A DNA stretch of 64,000 bases, from assembly GCA_012959805.1 (NCBI GenBank), contig DUCN01000062.1, positions 169,373 to 233,372 of the forward strand, read 5' to 3'. Under the pieces are notes generated by a model. That model was given only the letters and a program-made list of their open reading frames with translations, made no database searches and was not told where the DNA came from. The position numbers and the translations under genes were made by a program. Source of the stretch: Myxococcales bacterium (GTDB lineage: Bacteria; Myxococcota_A; UBA9160; UBA4427). Positions 19 through 23,392 of this stretch are shown in pieces; the first letter of the stretch is position 1; the number at the start of each line of letters is the position of its first letter.

Positions 19-855
19 TTGATTGGACCTCGAACATTTCTCGAGTACCGGAACTATCGGTATTTGAAGATCGCACTCGGGCTGCTGGGCCTATCGCTGA
101 TCGCCTTCTTTTTCAGTGATGAGCCAGGTGGACGCAGTGGAAGCACGTGGGTTGGCTACGGGCTGGGGGCTATCTCGGCGGGAATCATCTACTGGCTGAT
201 GTGGCTTGGCATTCGCAAGCGCGACTACGCCTCGACCGGCGCTCCGCTGCGCGGTTGGGTTTCCGCACACGTCTATCTGGGATCAACGCTCTTGCTACTC
301 GTGCCACTGCATTCCGCGTTCGAGTTCGGCTGGAACATCCATTCGCTGGCCTACTGGATGATGTGCCTGGTCGTCTTTAGTGGGATGCTCGGCGTCGGCC
401 TCTACGCGTTGGTGCCGACGTCGATGACGCGGAATCGAAACAATATTACGTTGGACGCAATGCTGGAGCGTATCGCGGAAATCGACATGGAATGCCAACT
501 CGCTGCGGGAGGGTTACCTGACTACTACGCGCTGGCGGTCGTGACTTCAATTGAAGAGACTCATATCGGTGGCACCTTGAGGGATCAGCTCTCGGGGTGG
601 GACGATGCTTGTGGAACGTCCAGGGCACTGAAAAAGCTGCGGACCTCGGACATCGAGTTGACCGGCGATGCGAAGACTCAGGAGCGCAAGCTCGTCGAAC
701 TCATCGCGCGAAAGGAGTTGCTGCTCAAGCAGATCCGTCGCGACGTTCGATCCAAGGGGATGCTCGATCTTTGGCTGATCGTCCATGTGCCGGCGGCGTT
801 TGCGACTTGTGCCGGCGTTGGAATTCATGTCTTTGTGGTTTTCTGGTACCACTAG
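19..855 (+). CDS. Membrane protein with cytochrome-b-like paired histidines
   Basis: Integral membrane protein of about 278 residues with five likely membrane segments (about 17-32, 45-65, 82-103, 110-131 and 250-275) and a polar helical stretch (140-245) before the last one. His84 and His98 lie in one helix and His256 and His270 in another. Each pair is separated by 13 residues, the spacing of bis-His ligands in dihaem b-type cytochromes, so I infer a quinol-linked or ferric-reductase-like b-type cytochrome. Location beside multihaem cytochrome genes supports an electron-transfer role, perhaps feeding electrons from the quinone pool to periplasmic cytochromes. The TTG start lacks a convincing ribosome site and the frame is open to the window edge, so the N-terminus may extend upstream. 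It converges on the octahaem gene. No family name is certain. Confidence 0.6.
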   Translation: MIGPRTFLEYRNYRYLKIALGLLGLSLIAFFFSDEPGGRSGSTWVGYGLGAISAGIIYWLMWLGIRKRDYASTGAPLRGWVSAHVYLGSTLLLLVPLHSAFEFGWNIHSLAYWMMCLVVFSGMLGVGLYALVPTSMTRNRNNITLDAMLERIAEIDMECQLAAGGLPDYYALAVVTSIEETHIGGTLRDQLSGWDDACGTSRALKKLRTSDIELTGDAKTQERKLVELIARKELLLKQIRRDVRSKGMLDLWLIVHVPAAFATCAGVGIHVFVVFWYH

Positions 856-950: not shown

Positions 951-2792
951 CTACTTCTTATCGCGTGCGTGACATTGCGTGCATTTGACCGGAGCCTTTT
1001 CGCCTTCGCGTTCTCCAGCGGCGAGTAGTCTATTTACCGCCTTGTGGCAGCTCGCGCAGCTGATCTCTTCCTGCGCAGTGGCCCCACCGAAGTCGAGTCC
1101 CTTGGCGTGGGCATAGAATTTTTTCGCCTTCTCCTCGTCCGCGTCGCCGCCAATGTTGTGGCATTCATTGCAACTCTGTGGGCTGTCATCGCCTTCCTGG
1201 GTATGGTGGCAGGTCTGGCACGCAATGTCGTTGTAGAGCGCCCCGGTCGCATGTTTGCGATGTGGGAACTTGAACGACTTGTATTTCTTGCCGTCGGTGT
1301 TCATGCGGATTGTGTCGTCGACGTCGTCCAGGTATTTGGCCAGCGGGTTGTCAGCGGGAGAGGGCGGGGCTGCAGCGGTCTTCGCCTGCTGTGCTGCTTG
1401 TTTGGCCTTCGCGGCAGCATCCGCTGCGGCTTTGCGCGTGCGCGCATCGGCCGCTTCTTTTGCAGCCACTGCGTTGGCCTCTGCCTGTTTCGCTTTGATG
1501 GCGGCCTGCGCAGTAGCCACATCGGCACTAGCCCTTGCGTCCGCGGCGGCCTTCTGACGCGCTGCTTCCTGCATTTCGGCGTTCTTCGCCGCCATTTCCT
1601 GTTCTTGCGCTGCCGCAACGCTGGCGTTCGTCTGTTCGGCCTTCTTCGCGGCCGCGATTTCAGCGGCCTCTGAGGCGGCTTTGGCCGCCGCCGCATCGGC
1701 ACGTGCGGCTTCCGTCGCTGCCTGCTCGGCCGCCTTTGCTGCACTGGCCGCTGCCGCACCGGCGGCCGCTGTTAGGTCGCCACCTGGCTTCGAAGATTTC
1801 TCTGCCTCGGCCATCGCGTTCGCCCGGCGTCCAGCTTCCTCGCCGTATTCCGCGTAATAGGCGGCATCATCCTTGTCGACCCAGTGCGCGATCTTGCGGG
1901 AGAATTCCCGAAGGTCGAAGCCGATGAAGGTCGGACTCGCCTTATTGTGGCAGCTCGTGCAGACTTCGCGGCGGTCACTGAGGTCGCGCAGGACGCGAAA
2001 GCCCATCGCCTCGCGGTTCGGAACGTCTGGGCCGTGTTCTTCGTCGGCATAGACGCTGCCTGGGCCGTGGCAGACCTCACAGCTCACACCTTCTTCAGCG
2101 CGATAGCTCGAAGCTGTTTGCTCCGGACCCGCACCAAAGGCTGCCTGATGGCATTTTACGCATCGCCAGTCATTGGCGGGATCATCCACGCCCCGGGTTT
2201 TCTGCGCGATCTTCTTTGTGTAGTCACGCTGCAGTGTCTTGTGGGCTTGGGAATGGAAATGACTCTGCCAGACGGGCACAGCACCCTCTGGAAAGTCGCC
2301 TGTCGAATCCGAATGACAATCGGCGCAGACCCGCACGCCCACATATTTGAAGTCGCCTCGCAGGAGGGTCGGAGTTTCGTGCGCTCCGTAGTCGATATTG
2401 ACTTCTTGGGTGCTGGCGGGGGCATCGCCGCGGGCGATGAAACGGGCCGCAACCCATCCAGTGACGTAGTCCCCGGATGCTTTGATGCTGTACCAACGAG
2501 TCTTGCCGACTCGTCTTTCGCCGGTCACGACCACGGGGTCGTATTTCAACAGAATACCGGCGATGGAAGATTTGGCGCCCGGCTCCGCGCGGACGTTCAA
2601 TGCGGTCGGCTTCACGTAGCCATCAAACTCCTGCGCGCTCGCGACAGAAAAGAGAATCGGCAAGAGAAGGGTGGCGAGCGCAATCACGGCGAGGCGGCTT
2701 TGGACTCTGTGCGCAGCCCCGGCACCGCGCCATGCAGTCCGGTTGGCCATCCATCCCTTGCGTTCTAGCTGGTCACGATCGATTTGAGACAA
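951..2792 (-). CDS. Octahaem cytochrome c with SH3 domain and long Ala-rich helix
   Basis: Exported electron carrier. After a signal peptide (hydrophobic core about 34-50) comes a bacterial SH3-like domain (about 57-122). A first module has four CxxCH motifs (156-160, 211-215, 238-242, 278-282), resembling cytochrome c554-type proteins. Residues 325-475 are an almost uninterrupted Ala/Lys/Glu-rich helix, TolA-like in composition. The C-terminal module has four more CxxCH motifs (525-529, 541-545, 579-583, 604-608) and an FPHRKHATG segment typical of class III cytochromes. The likely location is the periplasm, possibly peptidoglycan-associated through the SH3 domain. The TTG start at 2792 is the longest; an ATG at 2750 (residue 15), preceded by AAGGGATGG, gives a more normal signal peptide. 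It is divergent from the large outer-surface cytochrome gene, so both may share a control region. Confidence 0.85.
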   Translation of the reverse strand: MSQIDRDQLERKGWMANRTAWRGAGAAHRVQSRLAVIALATLLLPILFSVASAQEFDGYVKPTALNVRAEPGAKSSIAGILLKYDPVVVTGERRVGKTRWYSIKASGDYVTGWVAARFIARGDAPASTQEVNIDYGAHETPTLLRGDFKYVGVRVCADCHSDSTGDFPEGAVPVWQSHFHSQAHKTLQRDYTKKIAQKTRGVDDPANDWRCVKCHQAAFGAGPEQTASSYRAEEGVSCEVCHGPGSVYADEEHGPDVPNREAMGFRVLRDLSDRREVCTSCHNKASPTFIGFDLREFSRKIAHWVDKDDAAYYAEYGEEAGRRANAMAEAEKSSKPGGDLTAAAGAAAASAAKAAEQAATEAARADAAAAKAASEAAEIAAAKKAEQTNASVAAAQEQEMAAKNAEMQEAARQKAAADARASADVATAQAAIKAKQAEANAVAAKEAADARTRKAAADAAAKAKQAAQQAKTAAAPPSPADNPLAKYLDDVDDTIRMNTDGKKYKSFKFPHRKHATGALYNDIACQTCHHTQEGDDSPQSCNECHNIGGDADEEKAKKFYAHAKGLDFGGATAQEEISCASCHKAVNRLLAAGEREGEKAPVKCTQCHARDKK

Positions 2793-3285
2793 CCCAAATT
2801 CCCCTTAGCCCCATCTGATGATGTGCGATAACCCGCGATCAATGTGACGTGGCAAGTACGCTGCGTTGACGGCGCCGATCGCCCAGGCGAGCCGAAGCGG
2901 AGACCAGCATTGATTGCTTCGAGAGTTGCCAGAAGATCCATCCTTCGGATCGTTCTGGACTCGACGAATATCGGAGATCCTACCCGAAGGCGGTGCCCTC
3001 AAGCGAGGGAAATTTCCGAGAGGGAGATTCCGGAACCGGAACCGGGATCTCTTCGGTCGGGCACTGAGCAGGTTTTTTAATGCAAATATGGGTTGAAAAT
3101 GGCACGCAATCTATCAGGATTGGCAAGGAAATGAAGGCCTCTAATCTGGGGGCGTTTCGATTCGGAAAATACGGATTTCCAGAGGCCAAACCGGGAACTA
3201 TCAAAGCGTCAGATTGGGCTTGAAGCACGGCCGCTGGTGGACCAATCTGATTAGAGCGATTTCCGGAATGAGCGAGAGGCCCATG
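2793..3285. other. Divergent intergenic region of the cytochrome locus
   Basis: About 490 bases separate the octahaem gene (minus strand) from the large Cys-rich cytochrome gene (plus strand). This should hold both promoters. The segment at about 3070-3090 is AT-rich compared with its surroundings and is the most promoter-like part, but I could not assign paired -35/-10 boxes or an operator. No convincing gene lies here. Confidence 0.4.
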
Positions 3286-6200
3286 ATGCAACCCGTGACC
3301 CTTCGACCGTCGATTCAATTCCCGCCATGTGTCCCGAGGAAATCGCTTCGCGATGACGGTCGTAGACACGGATCGTGGATCACTCTTGCCATTCTCGTAC
3401 TGACACTATTGAGCGTCGGATGCAACTCGGGTGGCGATTCGTCTGGGGGAGCCGGAGCTGGCGGCGGCGGGGGTGGCGCGCCTGCGACGACGGCAGGAAT
3501 CGCCGACGGGGGTGGCGCGCTCGAACGTCCTGACATGGAGCGGCGACCGTTCAGTCCGTCCAGCGATTGTAAAGCTTGTCATCCACGCCAATTCAACGAA
3601 TGGCGATCGAGTCCTCACGCATATAGTGGCATTAGTCCGACATTCTATTCGTTGGTCGCAGCGGGACAGAATAGTTTCGGCGCCGGCGTTGCGGTCGCGC
3701 AGAATGACGGCGTTTCTCAAGCCGGAGCGGTCGGCAACTTTTGTCTCCCGTGCCATTCGCCAATTGGATTCATCGGCGACGGTCGGTATGGCGGCAACAA
3801 CGGCGGCTTTGCGAACGTCCAGCCAGAAGCGGCGATCGCGTTCGTCTGCTCTCCCGCAAGCCCGACAAACGCGCTCATGCCCTGCACGCAGGATACTTCA
3901 GCCACTGTCTGCGGGGACCCAGGGCTCTGCTCCCAGTTCGAAGGACGCACTTGTTCGAACTCCCCACCCCAGGCGGCGGGAACGGACTTTCCCCGTCGGA
4001 TGATTCGTTGTGTCGATGACTCTGACTGCGCGGGCGGTTTGAATGGCTGTCCTGCCGGCCGAGATTGCGGAAGTTGCATCATCAATCCCGCCACAATCCA
4101 TTATCCGCCGCGTGCCCAGGAAGGCATCAACTGCGAGGTCTGCCATACGGCTCTTCCTGCCCATCAGCGATCTTGCCAGCTCTTCCGTGGTTCCGATGGG
4201 ACAGGCGTGCTGTCGATCGAGATTGCAGAGCGCGGAGCGAACGAAGACGGTCGTCGGATCCGTCTCGGCCCCTACCCGGTGGATCCCACCAGTGCCCCGG
4301 ACGAAGGACTTCCGGATGACCAGCTCCCTCTCATTCGCAACGCTTTCCACGAGTCTGCACGCGTCGATAGCCCGATGGGCATTCCCTATCAGAACACCGA
4401 CTTTGCGTTCGGTGTTGTCAATACTGCGAATACGGATCCGAATATAGTCAGGCCGACGGCCCTGACGTGTGAAGATCTGCCGTATTGCGGCAATGCGGGT
4501 GCTCCCGGCTCCAACCGTGTCTGCAACGGCGGTCCGACGATCGGTGACCCGTGTGCCAGCGACTTTGACTGCGGTGGCTGTGGTCCGGATCTTATGACCG
4601 GCCAACTTGTCTGTGGGCCCTCAAGCCCTCTGCGGGCCGGCCTTGCTTGTACGACTTCGATCGATTGCAACCAGCCGGCCGACCAAGCGATGAATCTGCT
4701 CCAGATCGCGACGAATTTGATTGACGGCGATGGAACCCTCGGGCCGCTGGCCGCGCGACCGCATTCGCCCTTGGGTGAGCCGGGCATCGAACTCGATCGG
4801 TCCGACGCGAACTATTTTCGCAGCAGCATGATGTGCGCGGCCTGTCATGATGTTAGGCCGCCCTTCGCAAACGCAATCCTGCGTTCCTGCCAGCTCCAGG
4901 ACTCCCATGTTTGTTCGACGGACGCCGACTGCACTGGTTTGAATGTCGGATGTCCGGGGAACGATTGTGGACCGTGTGTTCTTGAGAACAACGCGGCACC
5001 GAGCATCGCCGACGGAACGTCGCCGTCCAACCGCGCAGTCCCCGCCACCATCGATGAGCGCAATAACGGGTATCGGCGCGTGGAGAACCTGTTCAGCGAA
5101 TGGCAGATCAGTGTTTACAACCATCCTGAATTGGAATTCTGTGCGGAGAACACTTTCCGTGCCTGCGCCGAGGACAGCGATTGCATCGTCAATGGGGACG
5201 ACGAGGGTCCCTGTGAAGTAGAGAGCCCGTTGGCTGGCACCGGGACGGTCGTGACTTGTCAGGACTGTCACATGTCCAACTTCCCCGAGACGCCGCTTGT
5301 GAGCTACACGGTCGTTCCGCCGTCTGATCCATTTGACAATCCGGGCGTGGAAGATGAGTCCACACTCATCCCGGTCGTGTTGGCGAGCAAGAACGATCTC
5401 TATTCGGTCGGCAAGGCCGCGATCGAGGGTTCTCAATCGAATCCGGCAGAAGATCTTCCAGTGCGTCGCGTCTCGACGCACTTCATGTCGGGAGTGGATG
5501 TTCCGCTCGTGAGGTACCCGGGTCGAGAGGTCCAGGTCTCGCGTCGCCAGATGATCGTTGACTCGGGATTTAAGATCGTGATCGAAGAGCCACAGAATAT
5601 TACCGAAGGTAAACTCAGAGACGCCCCCTTCGTTCCCGGCGACATCGTTCGTGTTGATATCGAAATCACAAACGTGGGTGCCGGCCATCGCTATCCGGCC
5701 GGATTCTCCCATGAGCGACAAAATTGGGTCCAGATGTATGTCACCGAGATTGAGGCGCTCACGCTCGAAGGCGGTGGTCTCCTCGACCCCTTCGATCTCG
5801 ATGCGCCCTGCAATCTTCAGGAGACCATCGCGCGAAGCGCAGAGGATTCGCGAGATCCGGTCGGCGCTTCACGATTGCTGCTTGCAGGATGTGCGTTCAG
5901 GTCGGGCTTCGTGCTCGACAAAGCGCATCCGGAAACCGGTGAAATGGTTCCCGACGGCAGTCTTCGTGACGAAGATCCGGAAGATTTCTTTGTCGTCACG
6001 GGCACACGCGTTCGGGGCGATCCCGGCGACGCGCGAATCGAAGTCACACCGGGTGCACCGGGGCGAGCGCTATCGATCACGAACATCTGCGAAGAGGCGA
6101 CGGCTCTTGCCTACCGCGCATCGATTGCGGCGGGGTCCGGGCTCGACATGCGCGAGAACTCGACCTTCCCCTTCCAGGCGAGAATCTGCGATGCAAGTTT

Positions 6201-7560
6201 GTCACCGCCGATTCCGGGTGAGGACTTTGATGGTAAGGCCCTGGGCTCGGGTTTCACCTCTCCAGGCTTCGGCAATCCGGGTTGTATGGAAGGTGGCCAG
6301 GACCTCGGACCCTGCGTACCCGAAATCGAGTTGAGCGACGGTAACGAGCGCGGGCGATGTGCCAAGGATTTGACGCGGCCCCTCTGCCAGTCAGACAGTG
6401 AGTGCGGAGACGCAGGACCCTGTCTCTATCGCTGTAGCGAATTCCCGGAACTCCAGTGTTGCGATTCGTCGGATGCCAATTGCCAAGCCTTCTACGACGA
6501 AATTGGACAGTCGGAATGCATGATCGAGACCGACGGGGGGGGAAGCTGTGTCGGAGGCACCGACAACGGCGAGATGTGTATGCTCGACTCCGACTGTATG
6601 TCTAATAACTGTGGCGGCGTGGGCGGAGCAACCTGTGTCGGAGGCGACGACGACGGCCAGATGTGTATGGTCGACACCGATTGTACAGGTATAGACAATG
6701 ACTGTGTCAACCCTGGGATTTGTATTCGCGGAGCGCGATCCGGTCTTGGATGCGACAGGCGGGAAGACTGCAATGACGGCGACCCGGCAGGACCGGCGAA
6801 ATGCGGCGATGTCGGGCCATGTAATGTCGAAAATGCCGGAATCGTGAACTTCCAGAACCAGTTCCGCCAGACGGAAAATGGAGTCTGCGTCGACTTGGAC
6901 AATCCCGTGGATGGTTCGAATCATCCAATCCCCTCGACGACTCCGCCAACGGCTTGTTTCCTCGACTTGACTTGCACACTGAATGGTTTGCCGAACGCGA
7001 CGACGGGCTGTCTGATCATTGGGCAGTGTGCTGAGGACGAATCCCCGTCTGTTCCCGGGGTGAGTAGTATGGCGGGTGATTCCTGTACCAACTTCACCTA
7101 CGCCGACGATTGTGGAAGGAACGCCGGCGGAGACACCATCGCTTGTAATGTCGAGTTCAATCTCGAGTTGAACGGTCGACCCTCGGAATCGGTGTTCGTC
7201 CAGAATCATCCGCACAACTTCAACTCTCTGGCACCCTTGCAGCCACGGGTCTTCGAGTACGAATTCGAAATGCCACCCGAGTTCGCGGACAAGGATTTCG
7301 TGATCGCGGCTCGGATCATGAACCGCCACTTCCCGATGCGATTCCTTCGTAATTTGATTGGGACCCAGGTGGTGACGCCACCGCTAATTGTCGAGGCGCA
7401 GGGCGATCCGGACGATCCCAACGATTGTGATGAGACACGACAGATCGATATCGATTGTTTCGTGGACCCAGTGACGACGCTCGGCAATGCAGAGCCGGGT
7501 GGATTCGTTCCAGACGAGCAATTCACGAGGACGCGAACCTTCAGACTCGAGTCGCCTTGA
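3286..7560 (+). CDS. Giant Cys-rich multihaem outer-surface lipoprotein cytochrome
   Basis: Very large lipoprotein (about 1424 residues from the chosen ATG). A hydrophobic stretch ends in a lipobox (LSVGC), followed by a Gly/Ser-rich linker. Five CxxCH haem motifs lie at bases 3568, 3742, 4132, 4835 and 5256; the first is followed by an FNEWRSSPHA segment typical of multihaem c554-like proteins. Between and after the haems are many short disulphide-type repeats of the form C-x(6-9)-C-x(3-5)-DC (such as NGEMCMLDSDC and DGQMCMVDTDC), densest around bases 6330-6830. The C-terminal half has no haem motif. I infer an outer-membrane, probably surface-exposed terminal electron-transfer protein. It is followed by the MtrA/MtrB-type pair on the same strand. 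Start choice is uncertain: ATG 3286 follows GAGAGG at good spacing, while the frame opens at TTG 3214. Confidence 0.75.
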   Translation: MQPVTLRPSIQFPPCVPRKSLRDDGRRHGSWITLAILVLTLLSVGCNSGGDSSGGAGAGGGGGGAPATTAGIADGGGALERPDMERRPFSPSSDCKACHPRQFNEWRSSPHAYSGISPTFYSLVAAGQNSFGAGVAVAQNDGVSQAGAVGNFCLPCHSPIGFIGDGRYGGNNGGFANVQPEAAIAFVCSPASPTNALMPCTQDTSATVCGDPGLCSQFEGRTCSNSPPQAAGTDFPRRMIRCVDDSDCAGGLNGCPAGRDCGSCIINPATIHYPPRAQEGINCEVCHTALPAHQRSCQLFRGSDGTGVLSIEIAERGANEDGRRIRLGPYPVDPTSAPDEGLPDDQLPLIRNAFHESARVDSPMGIPYQNTDFAFGVVNTANTDPNIVRPTALTCEDLPYCGNAGAPGSNRVCNGGPTIGDPCASDFDCGGCGPDLMTGQLVCGPSSPLRAGLACTTSIDCNQPADQAMNLLQIATNLIDGDGTLGPLAARPHSPLGEPGIELDRSDANYFRSSMMCAACHDVRPPFANAILRSCQLQDSHVCSTDADCTGLNVGCPGNDCGPCVLENNAAPSIADGTSPSNRAVPATIDERNNGYRRVENLFSEWQISVYNHPELEFCAENTFRACAEDSDCIVNGDDEGPCEVESPLAGTGTVVTCQDCHMSNFPETPLVSYTVVPPSDPFDNPGVEDESTLIPVVLASKNDLYSVGKAAIEGSQSNPAEDLPVRRVSTHFMSGVDVPLVRYPGREVQVSRRQMIVDSGFKIVIEEPQNITEGKLRDAPFVPGDIVRVDIEITNVGAGHRYPAGFSHERQNWVQMYVTEIEALTLEGGGLLDPFDLDAPCNLQETIARSAEDSRDPVGASRLLLAGCAFRSGFVLDKAHPETGEMVPDGSLRDEDPEDFFVVTGTRVRGDPGDARIEVTPGAPGRALSITNICEEATALAYRASIAAGSGLDMRENSTFPFQARICDASLSPPIPGEDFDGKALGSGFTSPGFGNPGCMEGGQDLGPCVPEIELSDGNERGRCAKDLTRPLCQSDSECGDAGPCLYRCSEFPELQCCDSSDANCQAFYDEIGQSECMIETDGGGSCVGGTDNGEMCMLDSDCMSNNCGGVGGATCVGGDDDGQMCMVDTDCTGIDNDCVNPGICIRGARSGLGCDRREDCNDGDPAGPAKCGDVGPCNVENAGIVNFQNQFRQTENGVCVDLDNPVDGSNHPIPSTTPPTACFLDLTCTLNGLPNATTGCLIIGQCAEDESPSVPGVSSMAGDSCTNFTYADDCGRNAGGDTIACNVEFNLELNGRPSESVFVQNHPHNFNSLAPLQPRVFEYEFEMPPEFADKDFVIAARIMNRHFPMRFLRNLIGTQVVTPPLIVEAQGDPDDPNDCDETRQIDIDCFVDPVTTLGNAEPGGFVPDEQFTRTRTFRLESP

Positions 7561-7637
7561 TTGGCGAATAGAGGGGGGCCGCCTTCGGGCGCGGTGAGAT
7601 TTGCGAAGATGGGAATGAAAGTGTCGGAGGAGTGGGA

Positions 7638-8624
7638 ATGAGGCGGTCTGAGCCGGGCAGAGTCGCATTGCAAACTTGGATGATCGTGATTGGGGTTATG
7701 TTTCCAATTGCGATGCTTGGCGGGTGTTCGATGAATGCCAACGAAACCGGCCTTCCGCCGATGTTGACTGACAAAGTTCCCGACGCGACCCCCGTCGGCA
7801 GTGATGTCTGTGGCGATTGTCATTCTGCGGAGCCCGAATTTTATCAGACCGGCCATCATCGCGTCGCGTTCTTTCAAGGTGAGACCGGCGCTGGCTGTGA
7901 ATCTTGCCACGGCAATGGCAGTGTTCATGCTGAGTTCTTCTACGAGAATGAAGAGTATGACGATGATCCGACGGACCTGGTCGGGATCGATGACCTCTAC
8001 GGATTCTCCGGCGGCGAACGATCGGCGCTTTGCCAGCAGTGTCACCAGCAGGACTTCCCACTCTGGCCCTTGTCCGACCATGCGCGCTCCGAGGTCGGCT
8101 GCTGGGATTGCCATGCCGACGATCTGCATGCGCCGCCGCCGGGAATCGATGCGGAACCCGCCGTGCTGAATGCGCAGAGCGACAACGACTTCTGCGTTCA
8201 ATGTCATCCGTCTGTCGACGCTGAGTTCAAGCTTCAGTATCACCATCGAGTTCCCGAAGGTCAGATGAACTGCGTCGACTGCCATTCAATTCATGGCGAG
8301 GCGCCTACCGACACGGCGCTTCATGGCGAGAATACGCGCTGCTACGAATGTCACGCTGAGTTCAAGGGGCCCTTTGTCTTCGAGCATCTCGGCACCGAAG
8401 AAAGCTGTTCGAGCTGCCATGCGCCGCATGGTTCTCCGAATAACAAGTTGCTGGTCACGAACGACAACACGCTCTGTGTCCAATGCCACTTCCAGGGCCC
8501 GACTGGTTTTTTTGGTCGGCAACCCCACTCCGGTTTCCTTGGCGGTGCGGCGCTCTGTTATGACTGCCATTCCCATGTTCATGGATCCAATACCAATCGC
8601 AATCTCAACCCGAGGCGTTTCTAA
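7638..8624 (+). CDS. MtrA/DmsE-type decahaem c-type cytochrome, lipidated
   Basis: Periplasmic electron conduit of about 328 residues with ten CxxCH motifs evenly spaced along the protein (CGDCH, CESCH, CQQCH, CWDCH, CVQCH, CVDCH, CYECH, CSSCH, CVQCH, CYDCH), the count and length of the MtrA/DmsE/PioA family. These proteins insert into an outer-membrane barrel and carry electrons across it. Unlike soluble MtrA, the N-terminus is a lipoprotein signal ending in LGGC (Cys30), with Ser at +2, which predicts outer-membrane sorting. ATG 7638 is chosen because GGAGG at 7625 lies 8 bases upstream; a GTG at 7632 is too close. Its stop overlaps the start of the barrel gene by one base (TAATG), implying translational coupling and a stoichiometric complex. 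Confidence 0.9.
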   Translation: MRRSEPGRVALQTWMIVIGVMFPIAMLGGCSMNANETGLPPMLTDKVPDATPVGSDVCGDCHSAEPEFYQTGHHRVAFFQGETGAGCESCHGNGSVHAEFFYENEEYDDDPTDLVGIDDLYGFSGGERSALCQQCHQQDFPLWPLSDHARSEVGCWDCHADDLHAPPPGIDAEPAVLNAQSDNDFCVQCHPSVDAEFKLQYHHRVPEGQMNCVDCHSIHGEAPTDTALHGENTRCYECHAEFKGPFVFEHLGTEESCSSCHAPHGSPNNKLLVTNDNTLCVQCHFQGPTGFFGRQPHSGFLGGAALCYDCHSHVHGSNTNRNLNPRRF

Positions 8625-10750
8625 TGGCCGAATCGCGTAGTTGGGCGCCAGCTCGTTCCGGGCTCGCCGTGGTGTCGCTTTTGTGCTTCGTGGCCTTTCC
8701 CGTCTCGGCGGACGATGACGATGCGGAGGGTTCGAACTCTTGGCGAGAGTTGCCGGAATGGGTGAATCAAATTGGGGTCTCCGGCCGCTACGCCGATGCG
8801 GTGAGCGGGAGCGAGAGCAAGTACCTGGAAGATCACAATATTCAAACCGGACCGGTTCTCAGTCTCGGGATTGAAGATGAACTACCCGACGAAGGAATCC
8901 TGACCATCGATGGATTGGCTGAGCCACTCCAAGAACAGGGCTATTTACTTCTCAATCTGGACGTCCCGGAGAGGTTCACGCTTCACGCGGACGTTCAAGC
9001 GTGGCGCGAGTATTACAATCCGCGGACCGGCGAAAATCCGGTAACCGCTGCGGGCGCTCCCGTTTCCGGAGATTTCCCGAATACGAATGACAGTCGACAA
9101 TTCTTCGGCGGTGGACGGCCTAAGGTCGATTGGCTTCGAACGCGTTCCGGTATCGAAATCGAACTTCCCGCACTCTTAAACGATATCAGCGCAGACTTTA
9201 TCTATCGTCGCGTCGAAGGCCAAATGAGTCTGCTCAAGGGCGGAACCATCGACACGTCCGATCCCATCGCAGGCAGTGGCCCATTTCTCGAGTCCGTGAA
9301 TTTCGATGTGTCGAGTCGAAAGAAAGTCGATTACGAAAGTATCGGTGGGGTCTTTCGTGGCCGGGCGAACCCGGGAGGGTTGAACATCCAGTTCGATGCT
9401 CGCGGCATGCGCGATGATCTGAAATCGATCGTGCGCGAACCGAATTTTGGCGCAGACGCCGGATCAACCCAAGTCGAAATCTACGGCCGTGATACGAAGA
9501 TCGGAATCCTGGACGGTGATCTCGTCATGAGTCGACATCTCGCACACAACCTCTTTGTGTTCGGCGGGGCATCATTTTCGTTCGAGCGCAGCGACCCCGA
9601 ACCGAACCAGCTCGTTCAGACGGGGTTGTTCGCTGCGGTGCCGGCCGGAACGTTCTCGCGAGAAACACTGGATTCAAAGGTCACACGCTTCACCGAAGCT
9701 CTAACCGGCGGTGCCGTTTATCTCCCGATGCGGAATTTGACGATTCGGGCGAATGCCTCGCTGCGTTTCAGTCAACAAGATGGAGACCTAACCGAAGATC
9801 GGCAGGAGGGGGAATTCGCGCTCGGTGATGTCGGGACGATCATTAATGACTCGGAGCGCAATACGGTTTCTGCGAGTGTTCGTGTGAAGGGCGATTGGCG
9901 ACCCATGAAGCGGGTGAAGGTCCTCGGGTTTGCCCGTTTTGATTTCCGCCGTCAAGAGGCTGATTCGACTCGGACCTTTAATTTTACCCCCAGCATTGAC
10001 CTGCCCGAAATCGAGGATTACACGACGGAACGTACGAAGTTTCGCGTAGGCGGCGAAGCTGCGTATCGCTTTCGCCGGGGCCGTACTCTAAGCGGCGGTT
10101 ATGAGTTCGCATACGTTGGCTTCGACAACGACGTCGACCAAATCTCGAATCAGTTCATCATGGAAGACTACGAGCATCTGCGTCATCGGATTCATGTGAA
10201 GGCCGCTGGTCGAATCACGGACAAGATCCGAGGCGAGTTGAGAGCGGAGTACCACTTTGAGAATCGAACGCTTGATGCACCAGCAGTCCAGGCCTCGGAT
10301 TTTACGGTTGAAGAAGACGGCAAAATTGAAATTCAGGGTTTTAGAATCACACCGATGCTGACCTATCAGCATGATAAGCATTGGAGTGGAGTGATGAGCA
10401 CCTCGATCGGCCAGGAGACCTACCATCTCAAGAATGCTGGCCCCAAGCCTGCACTCTTCTCCTCCCAATTTGCGGGATTCGAGTACGAGGCGCTGACTGC
10501 CACGCTTACGAGTTCGTTGAATTGGACGCCTAACGACCGAATGACGAATGCCTTGTCCTACACGCTTTACCACAATTCGGAATCGGTCGAGAATGTGGGA
10601 CATGACGCATCGGTTCGCACGCGTTATGCCCTCGACGAGAATTGGGATCTGAGTGGGATGCTTCGCTATCTCGCCTTTGATCCCAGCGGAAACTCGGTCG
10701 ATGACTATCACGCCCTCATCGTATCAGTGGGAATGACTGGGCACTTCTAG
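8624..10750 (+). CDS. MtrB/PioB-type decahaem-associated outer-membrane barrel
   Basis: Outer-membrane beta-barrel of 708 residues that should sheath the decahaem cytochrome encoded immediately upstream. A cleavable signal peptide (about 1-29, ending VSA before DDDD) precedes alternating amphipathic strands throughout, and the protein ends in an aromatic residue (GMTGHF), the usual barrel-assembly signal. Length is close to MtrB/PioB proteins. I see no cysteine in the mature protein, so the N-terminal CxxC of Shewanella MtrB is absent. Start overlaps the decahaem stop by one base. The 3' end overlaps the convergent FHA-cytochrome gene by 4 bases. Family assignment rests on the paired decahaem gene, size and barrel features rather than on a sequence search. 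Confidence 0.85.
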   Translation: MAESRSWAPARSGLAVVSLLCFVAFPVSADDDDAEGSNSWRELPEWVNQIGVSGRYADAVSGSESKYLEDHNIQTGPVLSLGIEDELPDEGILTIDGLAEPLQEQGYLLLNLDVPERFTLHADVQAWREYYNPRTGENPVTAAGAPVSGDFPNTNDSRQFFGGGRPKVDWLRTRSGIEIELPALLNDISADFIYRRVEGQMSLLKGGTIDTSDPIAGSGPFLESVNFDVSSRKKVDYESIGGVFRGRANPGGLNIQFDARGMRDDLKSIVREPNFGADAGSTQVEIYGRDTKIGILDGDLVMSRHLAHNLFVFGGASFSFERSDPEPNQLVQTGLFAAVPAGTFSRETLDSKVTRFTEALTGGAVYLPMRNLTIRANASLRFSQQDGDLTEDRQEGEFALGDVGTIINDSERNTVSASVRVKGDWRPMKRVKVLGFARFDFRRQEADSTRTFNFTPSIDLPEIEDYTTERTKFRVGGEAAYRFRRGRTLSGGYEFAYVGFDNDVDQISNQFIMEDYEHLRHRIHVKAAGRITDKIRGELRAEYHFENRTLDAPAVQASDFTVEEDGKIEIQGFRITPMLTYQHDKHWSGVMSTSIGQETYHLKNAGPKPALFSSQFAGFEYEALTATLTSSLNWTPNDRMTNALSYTLYHNSESVENVGHDASVRTRYALDENWDLSGMLRYLAFDPSGNSVDDYHALIVSVGMTGHF

Positions 10751-12543
10751 CCACCGGCGTGGGCGGTGGGTTCTGTGGTGCCATGCGGCGAGGCCGCTTG
10801 CTCCTGTGCCATTGGCGGGAGCGTGTGGTCGTGGAAGTCGTGACACGACGAACAGGTGGAAGGGACCTTTCGGTTTCGGTTCTGCCCAGCACTCACATGG
10901 CAGTCTTGGCAGACTTCGATTCGAGGAATCATGATTTCCGAGGATGACTCGGAGACCGTGAAATCTGAACGTTCATCGATTCGGCCGTAGGGGATGGCTC
11001 CGAACTGCGCCCATTTCGGTTCGTCTCCAGGTTCAATGTCGTCGGCGCGGACGGAGGCGCCCGGATGGCAGGTCGAGCAGGCCTGGGTGGCGTGGGCGGA
11101 ATGGCTGAAGCGGGCGCTCTGGATCCAGTTTTGCTGCAGCTGAATGGGCATGACACCTCGGGCGATCCAGTTGCCGGTCTGTTCCGAGACTTTGCCACCG
11201 ATGACCTGATGACATTTCATGCAATGCTCGTCATCCGTAAAGACAAATTTGTCTGCGCTCGCCACCTTCGAACCGATCCAGTCTGCGCTCACGGCGCGTT
11301 CTTCCGTCCCGATTAGCGGTCCAGGCAGGCGTCGGCGGAGGGAGGCGGGGGCGTGGCGATCTTGTATCCGAGCTTCCAGGACCTGGCTGGTAAAGAAGGT
11401 TCGCAGCTGATCGCGAAGTTTTTCAGGATCGCCATGAATGAGCATCAAATCGGAATCAATATCAATTTCCGGAATGTTGGTGTCGAGTGGGTGGCAGCGA
11501 CGGCAGTTGCGATCGAATTGCACCAGCTGCATTGATCGGCCGTCTTCTCTGACTTGGTGACATTGGCCACAGCTAAGCCACTCCTCGCTTCCGTCGGGCC
11601 TTTCGAGCACCTGCGACGTGTGGAAATGATGATCAAATTCCACTCCGGAGTCTTCTTCGAGGCCCTCGGACCAGACCAGGCGATGAGGGGGCTGGTTTGG
11701 ATTTTCGACGACCGCCAACTGAATCGGTGGGTGATTCGAACCGAAGTCGCTTGCATTGGCCAGTTTGGTGTCGGCGACCTGGCTCGAGAGGTCGCCGTGG
11801 CAGGTCACACAATAGGTAGCCCCCTGGTCCGTGAGCGCGACCTCCCGCCCTCGATGTTCGAGATGGCAATCGGAGCAAGCCATTTCGTCGAGTCCCGGCA
11901 TGGCCAAATCCTGTCGTGTATGGCGCCGGATGTCGACATGGCAGCTTGTACAAGAATTGTTGGAGACCTGACGAAAGAGCCCGTCATGACAGCTGGCACA
12001 ATCGTCTTCGATCATGGCGTGGCCGCGAATGACCGGGCCGCTTGTCCAGAAGGGTCGCATCGCCGGGACGAACATCGGTAACACGAAAAATCCCAGAAGG
12101 ATGAGACCGAGACCAATCCAGGAAAGTGGGCGTCGTGCAAAAATGCCACGCTCGATTCCCAGACGCGTCCGCATGTCGAGAGCGTCGCGGGCATTGCCGC
12201 TCAATTGCCGCTCTTCGTATTCGAGGCGGAAGTCTTCACCGGTATTCGCTTCCAGCAGGCGAAGTGTCCATGCGCCGATGTGGATCTCGTCGCCGATGGC
12301 CAGGCGCTCGCCGGTGGTCGGCAAGCCGTTAACGACGACTTCCTGGCCTTGTGCCGCCTCGATGTAGACGTTGCCATCGCCGATGCGCATCGTGGCATGG
12401 TGAAGAGAGGTCGTTAGTCCCTGCAGGCAAAGGTCGTTATCGGGGCCTCGACCAATATAGAGAGACTCGCCTTCGACGCTTTGATCGAGCCGGACGCGCT
12501 TCCCGCCGGGTCGAAGTTTGATCTGGGAAAGGCTGACGCGCAT
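10747..12543 (-). CDS. FHA domain fused through a membrane helix to a decahaem cytochrome
   Basis: Bitopic protein of 598 residues. Residues about 12-100 form an FHA domain with the hallmark residues IGR (30-32), a Ser-x2-His (46-49) and VNG (71-73), which in this family bind phosphothreonine. Residues 141-161 are a membrane helix with positive residues before it, placing FHA in the cytoplasm. Residues 170-598 are periplasmic, with ten CxxCH motifs (182, 198, 223, 245, 325, 347, 441, 489, 545, 564) and many extra His for bis-His ligation. The role is probably an inner-membrane-anchored periplasmic cytochrome, like quinol-to-cytochrome relays, with phospho-dependent recruitment on the cytoplasmic side. 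The kinase or phosphopartner is unknown; two Ser/Thr kinases lie 5-11 kb away. It is transcribed towards the barrel gene. Confidence 0.88.
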   Translation of the reverse strand: MRVSLSQIKLRPGGKRVRLDQSVEGESLYIGRGPDNDLCLQGLTTSLHHATMRIGDGNVYIEAAQGQEVVVNGLPTTGERLAIGDEIHIGAWTLRLLEANTGEDFRLEYEERQLSGNARDALDMRTRLGIERGIFARRPLSWIGLGLILLGFFVLPMFVPAMRPFWTSGPVIRGHAMIEDDCASCHDGLFRQVSNNSCTSCHVDIRRHTRQDLAMPGLDEMACSDCHLEHRGREVALTDQGATYCVTCHGDLSSQVADTKLANASDFGSNHPPIQLAVVENPNQPPHRLVWSEGLEEDSGVEFDHHFHTSQVLERPDGSEEWLSCGQCHQVREDGRSMQLVQFDRNCRRCHPLDTNIPEIDIDSDLMLIHGDPEKLRDQLRTFFTSQVLEARIQDRHAPASLRRRLPGPLIGTEERAVSADWIGSKVASADKFVFTDDEHCMKCHQVIGGKVSEQTGNWIARGVMPIQLQQNWIQSARFSHSAHATQACSTCHPGASVRADDIEPGDEPKWAQFGAIPYGRIDERSDFTVSESSSEIMIPRIEVCQDCHVSAGQNRNRKVPSTCSSCHDFHDHTLPPMAQEQAASPHGTTEPTAHAGG

Positions 12544-12962
12544 TGACTAGAGGCACCGCGGGGCGAGGGCTATTGAGTTGTCAGGATCGCACGGTGGGGC
12601 GAGATGCGCGAGGGCCGAAATGCCTCCGGAATGGTCTGGGAGCATCTGTGCCCGTGTTCTCGCTCATAGCCAAGGGTGTGCGCAGGTGCGGGGATCGCGC
12701 GGTCCTGTCGGAAGCGAACCGGGAGTCCGGATGCCCGGGACACCAATCTCGGCTGTGAATCCGCATCTGAGGTGCAATTGCGCCGGAGAATCTCGCAGGT
12801 CCACCCGAAAGGGAGTCACCCAGCGGCATCCGGGGCTACTTTCCTAGTGACGGTAGAATGATGGTCGATCCGAGTGGGAGACAGTCGCGCGTTCGGCTGA
12901 TCGCGATATCGTCTTGATCCACCTGACCCCCATCGGGGGCACTGAAATGCCGGGAGACCTGT
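12544..12962. other. Divergent intergenic region upstream of pckG
   Basis: About 420 bases separate the starts of the FHA-cytochrome gene and pckG, so both promoters must lie here. TAGAAT near 12853 could be a -10 box for pckG but has no clear -35 partner. GGGAGA just before the pckG ATG is the ribosome site. No gene is seen. Confidence 0.35.
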
Positions 12963-14792
12963 ATGGCTCTTGAATCGCCTACGTCCACGCCTGAGAAATC
13001 AGCACCCACGCAGAATACAAAACTCATCGATTGGGTTGCTGAAGTCGCCAACCTGACCGAGCCGGACCAGGTTGTTTGGTGCGACGGTTCGCAGGACGAA
13101 TATGATCGCATGTTCGAGATCATGTTGAAGACGGGCACCGCCGAGCGTCTGAACGAATCGATTCGTCCCAACAGTTATCTAGTGCTTTCCGATCCCGCGG
13201 ATGTGGCGCGTGTCGAAGACCGCACGTACATCTGCAGCGAGAAGGAAGTCGACGCTGGACCGACGAATAACTGGTGTGAACCAGCTGAGATGCGCGAGCG
13301 ACTAAATGGTTTGTTCCGTGGCTCGATGCACGGTCGGACGATGTACGTCATCCCTTTCAGTATGGGTCCGATCGGATCCCACATCGCACATATCGGCGTG
13401 CAGATTTCTGATAGTCCATACGTCGTCGCCAATATGCGGACGATGACTCGCATGGGACAGGCCGTACTCGACACATTAGGCGTAGACGGCGAATTCGTTC
13501 CGTGCATGCATTCTGTTGGCCATCCGCTTGAGCCCGGACAGAATGATGTCCCTTGGCCGTGTAATGGCGACAACAAATACATCGTTCACTTTCCCGAGTC
13601 TAGGGAGATCATGAGTTATGGATCGGGCTACGGCGGCAATGCCTTGCTCGGCAAGAAGTGTTTTGCTCTGCGGATTGCGTCTGCCATGGCGCGGGATGAA
13701 GGCTGGCTTGCCGAACACATGCTGATCTTGAAGTTGACCTCGCCCGGTGGCGATTCGAAATACGTGGCCGCGGCGTTTCCGAGCGCCTGTGGCAAGACGA
13801 ATCTCGCCATGCTGGAACCCACACTTGATGGCTGGGTGATTGAAACCGTCGGCGATGACATCTGCTGGATGAAATTCGGCGAAGACGGCCAGCTCTACGC
13901 GATCAATCCAGAAGCGGGATTCTTCGGCGTGGCCCCCGGCACCAGCGACCGTTCTAATCCCAATGCGATGATCGGTCTTCGCGAGAACTGCATCTTTACC
14001 AATGTGGCCAAGACCGACGACGGAGATGTCTGGTGGGAGGGAATGGGCGAAAAGCCGGCTCACCTCATTGATTGGCGCGGAAATGACTGGACGCCGGAAA
14101 GCGACACCGCGGCGGCCCATCCCAATGCTCGGTTCACGGCGCCTGCGAGCCAGTGCCCGGTCATTGCTCGAGAATGGGAGAATCCCGGTGGCGTGCCGAT
14201 CAGCGCGATTCTCTTCGGCGGACGGCGGGCGACGGTTGTGCCGCTTGTCCATGAAGCGCGCGATTGGGCGCATGGCACCTTCCTCGGCTCGATCATTTCG
14301 AGCGAGAAGACGGCTGCGGCGGCTGGGACGGTCGGCGAGCTGCGCCGGGATCCAATGGCCATGCTTCCCTTCTGCGGATACAACATGGGCGACTACTGGA
14401 ACCATTGGCTCGAGATGAGCCAGAAAGAGGGCGCACAGCTTCCGCGTATCTTCTACGTGAACTGGTTCCGCAAGGGAGACGAAGGCGAGTTCCTCTGGCC
14501 CGGATTTGGCGAGAACAGTCGGGTTCTGAAATGGGTCCACGAACGATGCAGCGGTAAGGTTTGCGGCGTCGAGACGCCGATCGGAGTACTTCCGGCAACG
14601 GATGAACTCGATCTCCTCGGTCTCGACATTCCTCCCGCCGCCCTCGAAACGCTGACGACTGTCGACATTAAAGGTTGGCTCTCGGAGATTCCGAAGGTTC
14701 GCGAATTCTATGTGGGCTTCGGCGATCATCTTCCGGAAGATCTCGTCGTGGAACTCGACAGGCTCGAAGCGCGGTTGCGCGCGGCTGAGTAG
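12963..14792 (+). CDS. pckG: Phosphoenolpyruvate carboxykinase (GTP)
   Basis: Cytosolic enzyme interconverting oxaloacetate + GTP and phosphoenolpyruvate + CO2 + GDP, the committed step of gluconeogenesis. The 609-residue length matches the GTP-dependent family, not the shorter ATP-dependent one. The nucleotide-binding loop [12 protein letters not shown] starts near residue 273 and carries the reactive Cys typical of GTP-PEPCKs. VGDDICWM and the [13 protein letters not shown] segment follow, as in characterised members. GGGAGA lies six bases before the ATG. It stands alone, flanked by a promoter-sized gap and a strong hairpin, with argG convergent. Confidence 0.95.
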
Positions 14793-17056: not shown

Positions 17057-18985
17057 ATGACGCGCGAGAAGGCGTCGGGTTCGAGAAACGACGCCTCGGC
17101 TGAGGCGGAAACGCGCGTGCTTCCGTCTGATGATGCGGCCGTCGAGGAAACGGATCCAGAGCTTGCCGAAACGGTGCTTGCGACGATCGGTGACGAGCCA
17201 GAATCCGACGTGATAGACGAGGCTGTGCAAGACTTGGACAAGGGTTCTCGTGACGACCCAGACAGCGACCTCACTCAGCTGGTGACGCATGCCGGGGAGG
17301 GGTCTGCATCAGCGTCTGAGCTTGATGCGACGCGAGTGATCGACCCAGCCGCGCTCCCGGCGACTTCCAATCCTCAGGCTGAGGCGGACGCTGCGACACG
17401 TGTTGTTGATCCTTCCGATGACAAAACCTTCCCACCGTCGGCGTCTCGCAACATCCCCGCAAGTGGGCCTTCGGCTCCGCCACCTCCCCCGACGCCCATC
17501 GACAATACTCAGGGCCTAACGCCGGGATCCGTGCTCTTTGGCGAGTATCAAATCGTGAATGTTCTTGGCGTTGGTGGGATGGGCGAAGTGTATCGCGCAC
17601 ATCATCGCCGACTCGACGAGCATCGCGCGATCAAGGTCATGCACGCGAACCTGTCGGGGCAGAAGGGTGCGAGTGAGTTTTTCTATCGAGAAGCAAAAGC
17701 GCTGCTTGCCGTTCGGCACCCCGCAGTCGTCCACTGTCATGATCTCCTTTCGGATGATGCAGGACGCGTTTTCCTCATCATGGAAATGATCGAGGGGATT
17801 CCGCTGTCCGCGAAGATGAACGATGGCCCTCTTTCCCCGGATGAAGTCGCGATTCTCGGTGCGCGGGTTTCGCATGGGTTGAGTGCGGCACATCGGAAGG
17901 GTGTGATTCATCGAGATGTTTCGCCCGACAATATCGTCTTGCCGCGTGGGCGAGTGCAGGAAGCCAAACTGATTGATTTCGGGATTGCGAAGATTCTCCA
18001 GGAAGGCGAGGGCACGATCGTCGATGGATTCAAGGGCAAGCTGTCCTACGCCTCGCCGGAACAGCTCGGTTTCTTTGGTGGAAAGATCGATGGTCGCTCC
18101 GACTTTTACAGCCTTGGGTTGGTCTTGGTCGCCGCCGCAATGGGTCGCCCGCTGAGCATGGGAACGACCGTGATGGAAGCGGTGGACGCGCGTCGAAGCT
18201 TCGATGCATTGCCGGACGCGATCCCGGTTGGGCTGCGTTCGGCGATCGCGCCGTTGCTGAAGCTCGATCCCGACGATCGTCCAGAATACGTGGATCGCCT
18301 CTTCGTTGTACCTGGGGGAATGGAAGGCTCAGCGGATTCCCACGGATACGCGGATGCTGCGCGCGTCGCACGTGGTCGGCCTCCAGCAGGCCAATTTAAT
18401 TTGCGTAGGGGGCTCTTTGTCGGGATCGTGGCAGCATTGTCGTTGCTGGTCGCAGGGGGGCTATACCTCGCATTGGGGACGGAAACAGCCATCTCGCCAC
18501 AAGCGTCGACGACTGATGGTCCCACAGAAGAAATCTTCGTAGGCAGGGTCGAAGTGGGGGCGGTGCCGATAGTTGCTGGCACGAATCGCGTCGAGGTGGA
18601 ATCGCCTGTGCCGAGCGAGCCGGACGTTGTCGTCGTGAGTAGCCCTGCACCCCAACCGAAGAAGCCGCGAAGGCTCACAGCGGGCGAGCGAATCAAGATG
18701 ATCGGCTTGTTGAAAGGTGCGCAGCTATCTCTGGCGGAAAATCAACTGATGTCGCCAGCGAACGACAACGCCTACGATCGTTATCAAAAGGTCCTAGCGA
18801 TGGACCCGGACAATCAAAAGGCAAGAGATGGCTTGCGGGCGATTGCCGACCGCTATCTCAGTCTATTGAATACGGCCGTGGATAAAGGACATCGGCAGGA
18901 CGCCCTCACTTTCCTAGCTCGGGCAAAGAAGGCGGATTCGACCCATCCAGGCATCGATTCAGCGGAGTCGCGCTTGTCGCGTTAG
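17057..18985 (+). CDS. Transmembrane Ser/Thr protein kinase, N-terminal kinase domain
   Basis: Receptor-type Hanks kinase of 642 residues. An acidic Thr/Ser-rich N-terminal region (1-160) carries several repeats of the form ETR/ATRV(L/I)(D/P), possible phosphorylation or FHA-binding sites. The kinase domain (about 164-425) has the Gly loop GVGGMGEVY, AIKV lysine, catalytic HRDVSPDN (Ser replaces the usual Lys, as in many proteobacterial kinases), DFGIAK and a shortened SPE. A membrane helix at about 452-474 is followed by a periplasmic Pro-rich linker and a short TPR-like tail. Substrates are unknown. The presence of an FHA domain in the nearby membrane cytochrome makes that protein a candidate partner, by inference only. 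Confidence 0.85.
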   Translation: MTREKASGSRNDASAEAETRVLPSDDAAVEETDPELAETVLATIGDEPESDVIDEAVQDLDKGSRDDPDSDLTQLVTHAGEGSASASELDATRVIDPAALPATSNPQAEADAATRVVDPSDDKTFPPSASRNIPASGPSAPPPPPTPIDNTQGLTPGSVLFGEYQIVNVLGVGGMGEVYRAHHRRLDEHRAIKVMHANLSGQKGASEFFYREAKALLAVRHPAVVHCHDLLSDDAGRVFLIMEMIEGIPLSAKMNDGPLSPDEVAILGARVSHGLSAAHRKGVIHRDVSPDNIVLPRGRVQEAKLIDFGIAKILQEGEGTIVDGFKGKLSYASPEQLGFFGGKIDGRSDFYSLGLVLVAAAMGRPLSMGTTVMEAVDARRSFDALPDAIPVGLRSAIAPLLKLDPDDRPEYVDRLFVVPGGMEGSADSHGYADAARVARGRPPAGQFNLRRGLFVGIVAALSLLVAGGLYLALGTETAISPQASTTDGPTEEIFVGRVEVGAVPIVAGTNRVEVESPVPSEPDVVVVSSPAPQPKKPRRLTAGERIKMIGLLKGAQLSLAENQLMSPANDNAYDRYQKVLAMDPDNQKARDGLRAIADRYLSLLNTAVDKGHRQDALTFLARAKKADSTHPGIDSAESRLSR

Positions 18986-22762: not shown

Positions 22763-23392
22763 CACGGAGTCGAACGATCGGGATCCAAGTTGTGTTGGTG
22801 TGTGCTTGTGGGCGTTTTTGGGCATTGTGCCGAGTCAGGCTTCAGCTCTGAGACTCACCGGGCTGTCGGAGGCTGAGCTGATCCACCAGTGCTCGTTCCG
22901 ATTCGACTCGCTTCAAATGCAGATCGCGACCCATCGTACTGACAGCATCTTTTGTCGTCGCCAACGCCAGATTCAAGCGACCTAAATAAATCAGATAGGA
23001 AACGTCCGGAGACGAGTCCGACTTCTTGCGTCGTAGTTGGGCCCGGTCCTTGTTCGGTAGCAACTCCGACACGAGGCTCAAGACTTCGGTCGCGATGCAT
23101 CCCTGCACCTTCCGAAACACGGTTTGAGTCAATGGATTGACATATACAGGCCAATTTCGGTGTGATCTTTGATCGCATTCTACGACCGGCCCCTGGATCC
23201 CCGGAGGGGCACCTGCTCGCCAACGGGTCCGACGACCCCATCGGTGGGAAGCCTAACCGACCTGTTCCAGAAGCCGCGCTATCCTGCCGACGTCCCAAAC
23301 CAGCCCCCAGCTGTGATCGTTCGCGAAGACCGCCCATTCCTTTGAGGCTCTGGGAGAAGGCATCGCAACGCACAGGTGGATGTGGAGGCGGC
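22763..23392. other. Long gap between murA and kinase gene
   Basis: About 630 bases. TTGACA at 23136-23141 with a weak TGTGAT 18 bases on could be the promoter for the downstream kinase. The only plausible gene is a weak minus-strand frame at 22842-23132. Nothing else is recognisable. Confidence 0.3.
22842..23132 (-). CDS. Possible small hypothetical protein
   Basis: A 96-residue frame starting with TTG, with protein-like composition: mixed hydrophobic and charged helices (IATEVLSLVSELLPNKDRAQ, SYLIYLGRLNLALATTKDAV), no low complexity and no long Arg/Pro runs of the kind seen in shadow frames. Against it, there is no ribosome site before the TTG, no family is recognised and the neighbourhood gives no support. 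It may encode a small helical cytosolic protein or be chance. Confidence 0.3.
   Translation of the reverse strand: MTQTVFRKVQGCIATEVLSLVSELLPNKDRAQLRRKKSDSSPDVSYLIYLGRLNLALATTKDAVSTMGRDLHLKRVESERALVDQLSLRQPGESQS

Follow-up and report, generated by a model that had tools for sequence, protein, structure and literature searches.

From which inner-membrane source are electrons delivered to an outer-membrane haem conduit, and can the two halves of such a chain be separated in evolution? The question is raised by a multihaem cytochrome locus in a 64,000-nucleotide stretch of a Myxococcales bacterium (GCA_012959805.1, contig DUCN01000062.1, positions 169,373 to 233,372 of the forward strand), hereafter the window; its own genome is denoted G000 and its contig G000:C62. 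We propose, from the sequence, that the locus encodes a modular chain for exporting electrons across the envelope, in which one outer conduit has been substituted for another, a reading to which we would give a probability of roughly 0.55. The inner module would be a trio formed by a flavin/iron-sulphur protein, a cytochrome b and a decahaem cytochrome with a forkhead-associated (FHA) domain; the outer half would be a cassette of octahaem relay, giant pentahaem, MtrA-like decahaem and barrel. The features of the window that bear on this proposal are the following.

19 to 855, plus strand: dihaem cytochrome b, b561/Ni_hydr_CYTB-like, member of the inner module
951 to 2792, minus strand: octahaem periplasmic relay, 8 CxxCH motifs; Pfam matches SH3_3, Cytochrome_C554 and Cytochrom_CIII
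1326 to 1850, minus strand: TolA-like alanine/charged linker separating the two tetrahaem domains of the octahaem protein, from composition
3214 to 7560, plus strand: giant pentahaem of 1448 aa, putative extracellular terminal cytochrome, 5 CxxCH motifs
7632 to 8624, plus strand: MtrA-like decahaem lipoprotein, 10 CxxCH motifs, MLGGC lipobox
8622 to 8626, plus strand: TAATG stop/start overlap of the MtrA-like and MtrB-like genes, read in the sequence
8624 to 10750, plus strand: divergent MtrB-like outer-membrane barrel of 708 aa with a C-terminal Phe, from remote profile homology
10747 to 12543, minus strand: FHA-transmembrane-decahaem cytochrome, 10 CxxCH motifs; FHA and c3-type Pfam matches
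10831 to 12000, minus strand: decahaem domain of the FHA-cytochrome (residues 182-571), strongly diverged in the window lineage
12070 to 12129, minus strand: single transmembrane helix of the FHA-cytochrome (residues 139-158), from an AF2 helix and the alignment
12238 to 12543, minus strand: FHA domain of the decahaem cytochrome (residues 1-102), from Pfam, AF2 and a fold match
12963 to 14792, plus strand: phosphoenolpyruvate carboxykinase (PEPCK, GTP), Pfam match; right-hand flank marking the site, outside the system

The CxxCH motifs of the octahaem, giant, MtrA-like, barrel and FHA-decahaem open reading frames (ORFs) number 8, 5, 10, 0 and 10, which yields the 33 c-type haem motifs already counted by the sequence-only reading of this DNA; shuffled controls (2000 per protein) contain on average 0.01-0.10 such motifs, with a maximum of 2, and elsewhere in the window a single further ORF of at least 100 aa has any (one). 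The TAATG coupling that the same reading had noted is present, and the barrel and FHA-decahaem genes can be read directly to overlap tail to tail at 10747-10750. Its description of the genes as side by side holds for their adjacency; the octahaem and FHA-decahaem genes are read from the strand opposite to the giant, MtrA-like and barrel genes, so that the locus is not one operon, and a single operon covering all of its genes was dropped for this reason. Its upstream boundary proved incomplete, since the flavin/iron-sulphur gene of the system precedes the b-type gene, outside the window.

This flavoprotein gene (G000:C62:166305-169325, or L013:16933-19953) encodes 1006 aa and ends 47 bases before window position 1. 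The protein combines an FHA domain, a TrxR/YpdA-like FAD domain (Pyr_redox), two cyclic-nucleotide-binding (CNB) domains and a DmsB/NrfC-like ferredoxin with four 4Fe-4S sites; all 16 cluster cysteines are kept in 13 of 13 homologues, as are the FAD motif GxGPxG and the NAD(P) motif G.GDA.IEN. In most of these homologues the second Rossmann strand is followed by a TrxR-like motif, xRRDxF(x)RAK, which, when read from the established TrxR structure, suggests NADPH as the reductant. The adjacent cytochrome b matches PF01292 at E 2.8e-6, under the curated cut-off, and an 11-member alignment contains the invariant histidines H84, H98, H108, H256 and H270, of which the pairs H84/H98 and H256/H270, each 14 residues apart, are consistent with two b haems. 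Entry from quinol had been supposed for the locus; no CymA/NapC, NrfD, CbcL-like or NetBCD quinol dehydrogenase was found among its genes with Pfam and curated family models, and the conserved partner is this cytosolic NAD(P)H/FAD/4Fe-4S protein instead.

The third member of the trio is the FHA-decahaem cytochrome, in which a conserved arginine (RRP) precedes the transmembrane helix, placing the FHA domain inside and the haems outside. The FHA domain is recognised by Pfam at E 7.9e-8, is modelled by AF2 with a pLDDT of 90-97 and superposes on the FHA domain of EmbR (VIA; Z 11.5, rmsd 2.5, 92 residues aligned), in a fold search whose matches are dominated by this domain and barely cover the haem part. 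Within the phosphothreonine pocket of the decahaem family the Arg is kept, and the Ser, His and Asn positions are not conserved, in contrast to the FHA domain of the Myxococcota flavoprotein, where the pocket residues are present. The weak conservation of the Ser and Asn positions suggests that the FHA domain of the cytochrome is probably not a classical phosphothreonine reader and may be a docking domain. The domain itself is missing from the decahaem of the trio in Acidobacteriota, and from the flavoprotein in Proteobacteria. Two Ser/Thr protein kinases are encoded less than 15 kb from the FHA-cytochrome (window 17057-18985 and 23162-26554), and a large ORF that resembles a lipoprotein and weakly matches CsgG (19043-21031) lies next to a kinase here and in genome G007. 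A dedicated kinase-FHA pair was considered and dropped, the kinase at 17057 being present at the same site in genome G001, which does not have the system.

The distribution of the FHA-decahaem family was established by a scan of 84,980 species genomes, in which matches to E 2e-14 gave 39 loci (L054-L092) from six phyla, in Myxococcota, Gamma- and Alphaproteobacteria, an Oligoflexia bacterium, Acidobacteriota, Planctomycetota and KSB1. The cytochrome b accompanies the decahaem in 38 of the 39 and the flavin/iron-sulphur protein in 36. Three further genes are frequent: an HbpS-like gene (26/39), a second barrel (26/39) and an LVIVD decahaem of 1290 aa (24/39); contig ends cut some of the loci that lack trio members and many of those that lack the usual outer genes. 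An MtrA-like, MtrB-like or giant gene was found in none of the 39, and the cassette in no other trio locus examined.

The exchange is apparent when the same genomic site is compared among relatives. G002 and G006 carry in succession acyl-CoA dehydrogenase, AAA ATPase, flavoprotein, cytochrome b, FHA-decahaem, HbpS-like gene, second barrel and 1290-aa decahaem, followed by PEPCK, and the part of the site covered by the contigs of G003, G004 and G005 shows the same arrangement. The left flank (acyl-CoA dehydrogenase and AAA ATPase) and the right flank (PEPCK) are common to G000, G001, G002 and G006; in G001 the left flank directly adjoins PEPCK, the system being missing between them. In G000, the interval from the flavoprotein and cytochrome b genes, at the left, to PEPCK, at the right, is occupied by the octahaem, giant, MtrA-like and barrel genes and the FHA-decahaem gene; the trio is collinear in five congeners, and in G000 its decahaem is inverted and located beyond the cassette. 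The usual 1290-aa decahaem was not found in G000, a genome about 90% complete. The parts, their domains and motifs, the conservation of the trio and the replacement of the outer genes at one site can thus be read in the sequence itself, and the best reading would be that the two halves, inner and outer, have evolved as separate modules, the window presenting a case in which the outer half was exchanged.

The FHA-cytochrome, the member of the trio that would face the new partner, has changed in the same lineage. Its orthologues sit at the same genomic site in the congeners, which are also closest to it in the tree (path 1.6, next 3.3), and its haems 5-10 are 32-38% identical to those of congeners vs 79-84% between L015 and the other congeners. 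A divergence ratio, in which the maximum-likelihood distances between G000 and five congeners are divided by those that separate the five from each other, amounts to 2.0 for the flavoprotein, 2.2 for cytochrome b, 1.7 for PEPCK, 3.5 for the FHA domain and 9.8 for the haem domain. This acceleration is compatible with a haem surface re-adapted to a new partner.

Outside trio loci, the complete cassette is found in G013 and G029 and, split over two contigs, in G012; the co-occurrence in related genomes predicted for an MtrAB-like conduit was thereby borne out, the MtrA homologue, the neighbouring outer-membrane barrel, the periplasmic octahaem and the exported pentahaem being conserved jointly. 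G007 has the octahaem and giant alone, on short contigs, and G022 a giant remnant. These five carriers belong to one family, that of the window organism, other genera included; 377 genomes of the phylum gave only two further matches, weak and partial. The absence of the FHA-cytochrome from G007 was not used as evidence, as its MtrA-like and barrel genes are missing too, which may point to gaps in the assembly. In G029 and G012 the cassette adjoins a different membrane-linked TrxR-like flavoprotein, its start cut off, which is again a flavin partner.

Within the cassette, the octahaem protein (likely start ATG at 2750) is composed of a signal peptide, a bacterial SH3 domain, a c554-like tetrahaem, the linker and a c3-like tetrahaem, and its profile matches in the PDB are c554 and nonahaem c. 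The linker is 43% Ala and 77% AEKRQD across 175 residues, and measures 159-190 aa in all five homologues; if it forms one helix, it would extend over ~25 nm, about the width of the periplasm. An octahaem nitrite or tetrathionate reductase was dropped as an identity, the halves matching c554 and c3 with a long linker between them. The giant has a lipoprotein-like signal and 80 Cys, 10 of them haem-binding, and the large number of others agrees with export and a disulphide-rich structure; homologues that share the gene order are 52-77% identical. It carries no MtrC Pfam domain and falls outside the OmcA/MtrC-family surface decahaems, a profile search of the PDB found no relative, and its first haem region gives weak, short matches to Cytochrome_C554 and ExtKL-type models, below cut-offs. 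The MtrA-like protein belongs to the MtrA/DmsE decahaem family by its ten CxxCH motifs and full-length MtrA similarity, residues 47-327 aligning to 46-325 of the MtrA chain 6r2q_A (profile E 9.1e-35); the DmsE and GSU2203 models match at E ~1e-55 (GSU2203 9e-56), under curated cut-offs, with 188.6 bits for the DmsE model TIGR03508, where 192.2 are required, and the locus contains no DMSO-reductase gene. The barrel appears to be only a remote relative of MtrB. Compared by hhalign with a canonical MtrB/PioB profile, built from canonical MtrBs of the same order that match 6r2q_B at 1.8e-47, it gives a probability of 85%, E 6e-6, over 421 columns; OMP_b-brl matches weakly, GSU2204 matches at E 2e-4, under its cut-off, and a profile search of the PDB found nothing.

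Other multihaem genes were observed among these genomes. A canonical MtrA/MtrB_PioB pair is encoded elsewhere in G000 (G000:C2:6652-8867, L129, and G000:C67:18755-19912), its barrel, which matches PF11854 at E 3e-52, being split across the two contigs, and counterparts of the pair occur in several relatives checked. G008, a congener without the trio seen at its PEPCK site, has adjacent 19- and 21-haem cytochrome ORFs (G008:C424:1268-5490, L128) adjoining a weak b-type cytochrome match. In G012:C24 (L127:7247-8824 and 12147-13469), a TrxR-like flavoprotein and a match to the trio-type cytochrome b lie in the vicinity of a 21-haem cytochrome, which may represent a further way of combining a flavin input with a multihaem output. 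G019:C5 and G019:C36 have ORFs of ~1060 aa with many repeated MtrA-like matches, apparently very long multihaem cytochromes.

From these elements we infer each transfer step of the following route, together with the NADPH preference, the direction, the outer-membrane placement, the acceptor and any regulation. Electrons would enter from cytosolic NAD(P)H, probably NADPH, at the FAD of the FHA/CNB flavoprotein and pass through its four 4Fe-4S clusters to the two b haems of the membrane cytochrome. They would then reach the FHA-anchored decahaem, the inner-membrane exit of the inner module, which would hand them over to the octahaem relay with its long linker; from there the MtrA-like decahaem inside the MtrB-like barrel would conduct them to the giant pentahaem at the surface and to an external acceptor. 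Regulation may be exerted through the FHA and cyclic-nucleotide domains. The flow is probably outward, as in an NADPH-oxidase-type exporter, because NAD(P)H is of low potential and the membrane is inside-negative, which would make export downhill in both redox and membrane potential. It can be hypothesised, more tentatively and with some doubt, that the whole constitutes an undescribed, quinone-independent and NADPH-fed export system, with an inner flavin/Fe-S/b/c module and interchangeable outer conduits in at least six phyla, of which the window would be an in-place exchange with a re-adapted hand-over cytochrome.

Several observations weigh against the proposed exchange and route. Cassette and FHA-cytochrome do not form a single transcription unit, and G012, G013 and G029 carry the cassette with no accompanying FHA-cytochrome trio; the hand-over to the octahaem is thus deduced solely from gene position. 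The divergence of the haem domain could reflect xenologous replacement by the gene of an unsampled relative, and the incompleteness of G000 makes absences from it uncertain. The barrel is unmatched by PF11854 at E<=1 in G000, and its AF2 model, computed alone, had a pLDDT of 31 and was discarded as unusable. Dihaem cytochromes b commonly bind quinones; the b cytochrome could therefore exchange electrons with quinone instead, and a quinone role through it may exist. This last point, the MtrA homology of the decahaem and the near-constant presence of a quinol dehydrogenase in MtrCAB systems (PMC8805035) are what a quinol-fed extracellular respiration would invoke, in which quinol reduces cytochrome b or the FHA-decahaem, the octahaem, MtrAB-like and surface pentahaem proteins follow, and the flavoprotein is regulatory or feeds quinone. 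We consider it unlikely, given that no known quinol dehydrogenase family is represented among the locus genes and that the gene conserved beside the b cytochrome encodes a protein with every element of an NAD(P)H/FAD/4x4Fe-4S electron input.

The separation of cassette and trio could also mean that the two modules are adjacent and work apart, the cassette with another inner partner, such as the flavoprotein that it follows in G029 and G012, and the trio with another outlet, a canonical MtrAB pair being available elsewhere in G000. This is improbable in our view, as the cassette of G000 lies between cytochrome b and the FHA-decahaem, where the usual outer genes sit, and it is in this lineage that the FHA-cytochrome underwent the change in its haem domain. 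Electron uptake, with Fe(II), Mn(II) or a cathode oxidised outside and electrons fed inward, would agree with the inward direction of MtoAB/PioAB conduits, with an FHA-decahaem locus from 'Bacterium MnTg04' and with a 10-haem 'Forkhead-associated protein' cluster in 27 of 87 iron-oxidising Gallionellaceae genomes (PMC10734462), which is likened by annotation only; transfer to NAD(P)+ would be uphill in redox and membrane potential, however, and the locus shows no energy-coupling subunit, which makes uptake comparably improbable. The respiration or detoxification of a soluble compound outside the cell, with the giant as a c554-like enzyme and not a general mineral reductase, is suggested by the Cytochrome_C554 and ExtKL-type matches of its first haem region and by the closeness of the MtrA-like protein to DmsE. 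Since these matches of the giant are short and under cut-offs, no solved relative was found in the PDB, and the locus contains no molybdopterin reductase or other known terminal enzyme, this too seems an unlikely explanation. Of these readings we prefer export through a chain in which the outer half was swapped.

The outer-membrane electron conduits that have been studied well are supplied from the quinol pool, and a fixed NAD(P)H flavoprotein partner would mean a quinone-free route from cytosolic reductant to the outside, with the FHA and cyclic-nucleotide domains as possible built-in switches. The joint at which such a haem wire is modular is revealed by the naturally occurring swap of its outer half, and the orthologous site pairs would be useful for tests of partner specificity and for engineering electron export. 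An inner module of electron export with exchangeable outer conduits is apparently undescribed so far; no paper describing the cluster of trio, HbpS-like gene, barrel and 1290-aa decahaem was found in the open-access literature. FHA-annotated decahaem proteins were counted, and left undiscussed, in a Gallionellaceae pangenome (PMC10734462), and the iron-reduction genes of Woeseiaceae have been reported as mtrA, mtrB and mtrC (PMC12175321).

Compared with known systems, the locus resembles Shewanella MtrCAB/MtrDEF (PDB 6r2q) and PioAB/MtoAB in its full-length MtrA homologue, its adjacent coupled barrel of similar size (708 residues vs 695) and its exported multihaem protein. It differs from them in that the barrel is only remotely MtrB-like, the surface candidate is an unrelated 1448-aa pentahaem in place of an OmcA/MtrC-family protein, CymA and NetBCD are lacking, and an octahaem with a long helical linker replaces the small periplasmic carriers. 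Geobacter GSU2203/GSU2204 match the MtrA-like protein and the barrel, both under curated cut-offs, and the remaining locus differs. Gallionellaceae cluster 403 (PMC10734462, Table 1), 'Forkhead-associated' with 10 haem motifs and likened by annotation only, was placed there under 'Other', without neighbourhood or mechanism. The clusters of Woeseiaceae, Robiginitomaculum, Acidobacteriota and others share the same inner trio with entirely different outer genes (HbpS-like, barrel, 1290-aa LVIVD decahaem). In its proposed inner half the system would be similar to NOX-type NADPH oxidases, with a cytosolic NAD(P)H-flavin input, two membrane b haems and an output on the outside; unlike them, it has no NOX/ferric-reductase domain that we could find, and its multihaem c cytochromes would continue the path across the outer membrane.

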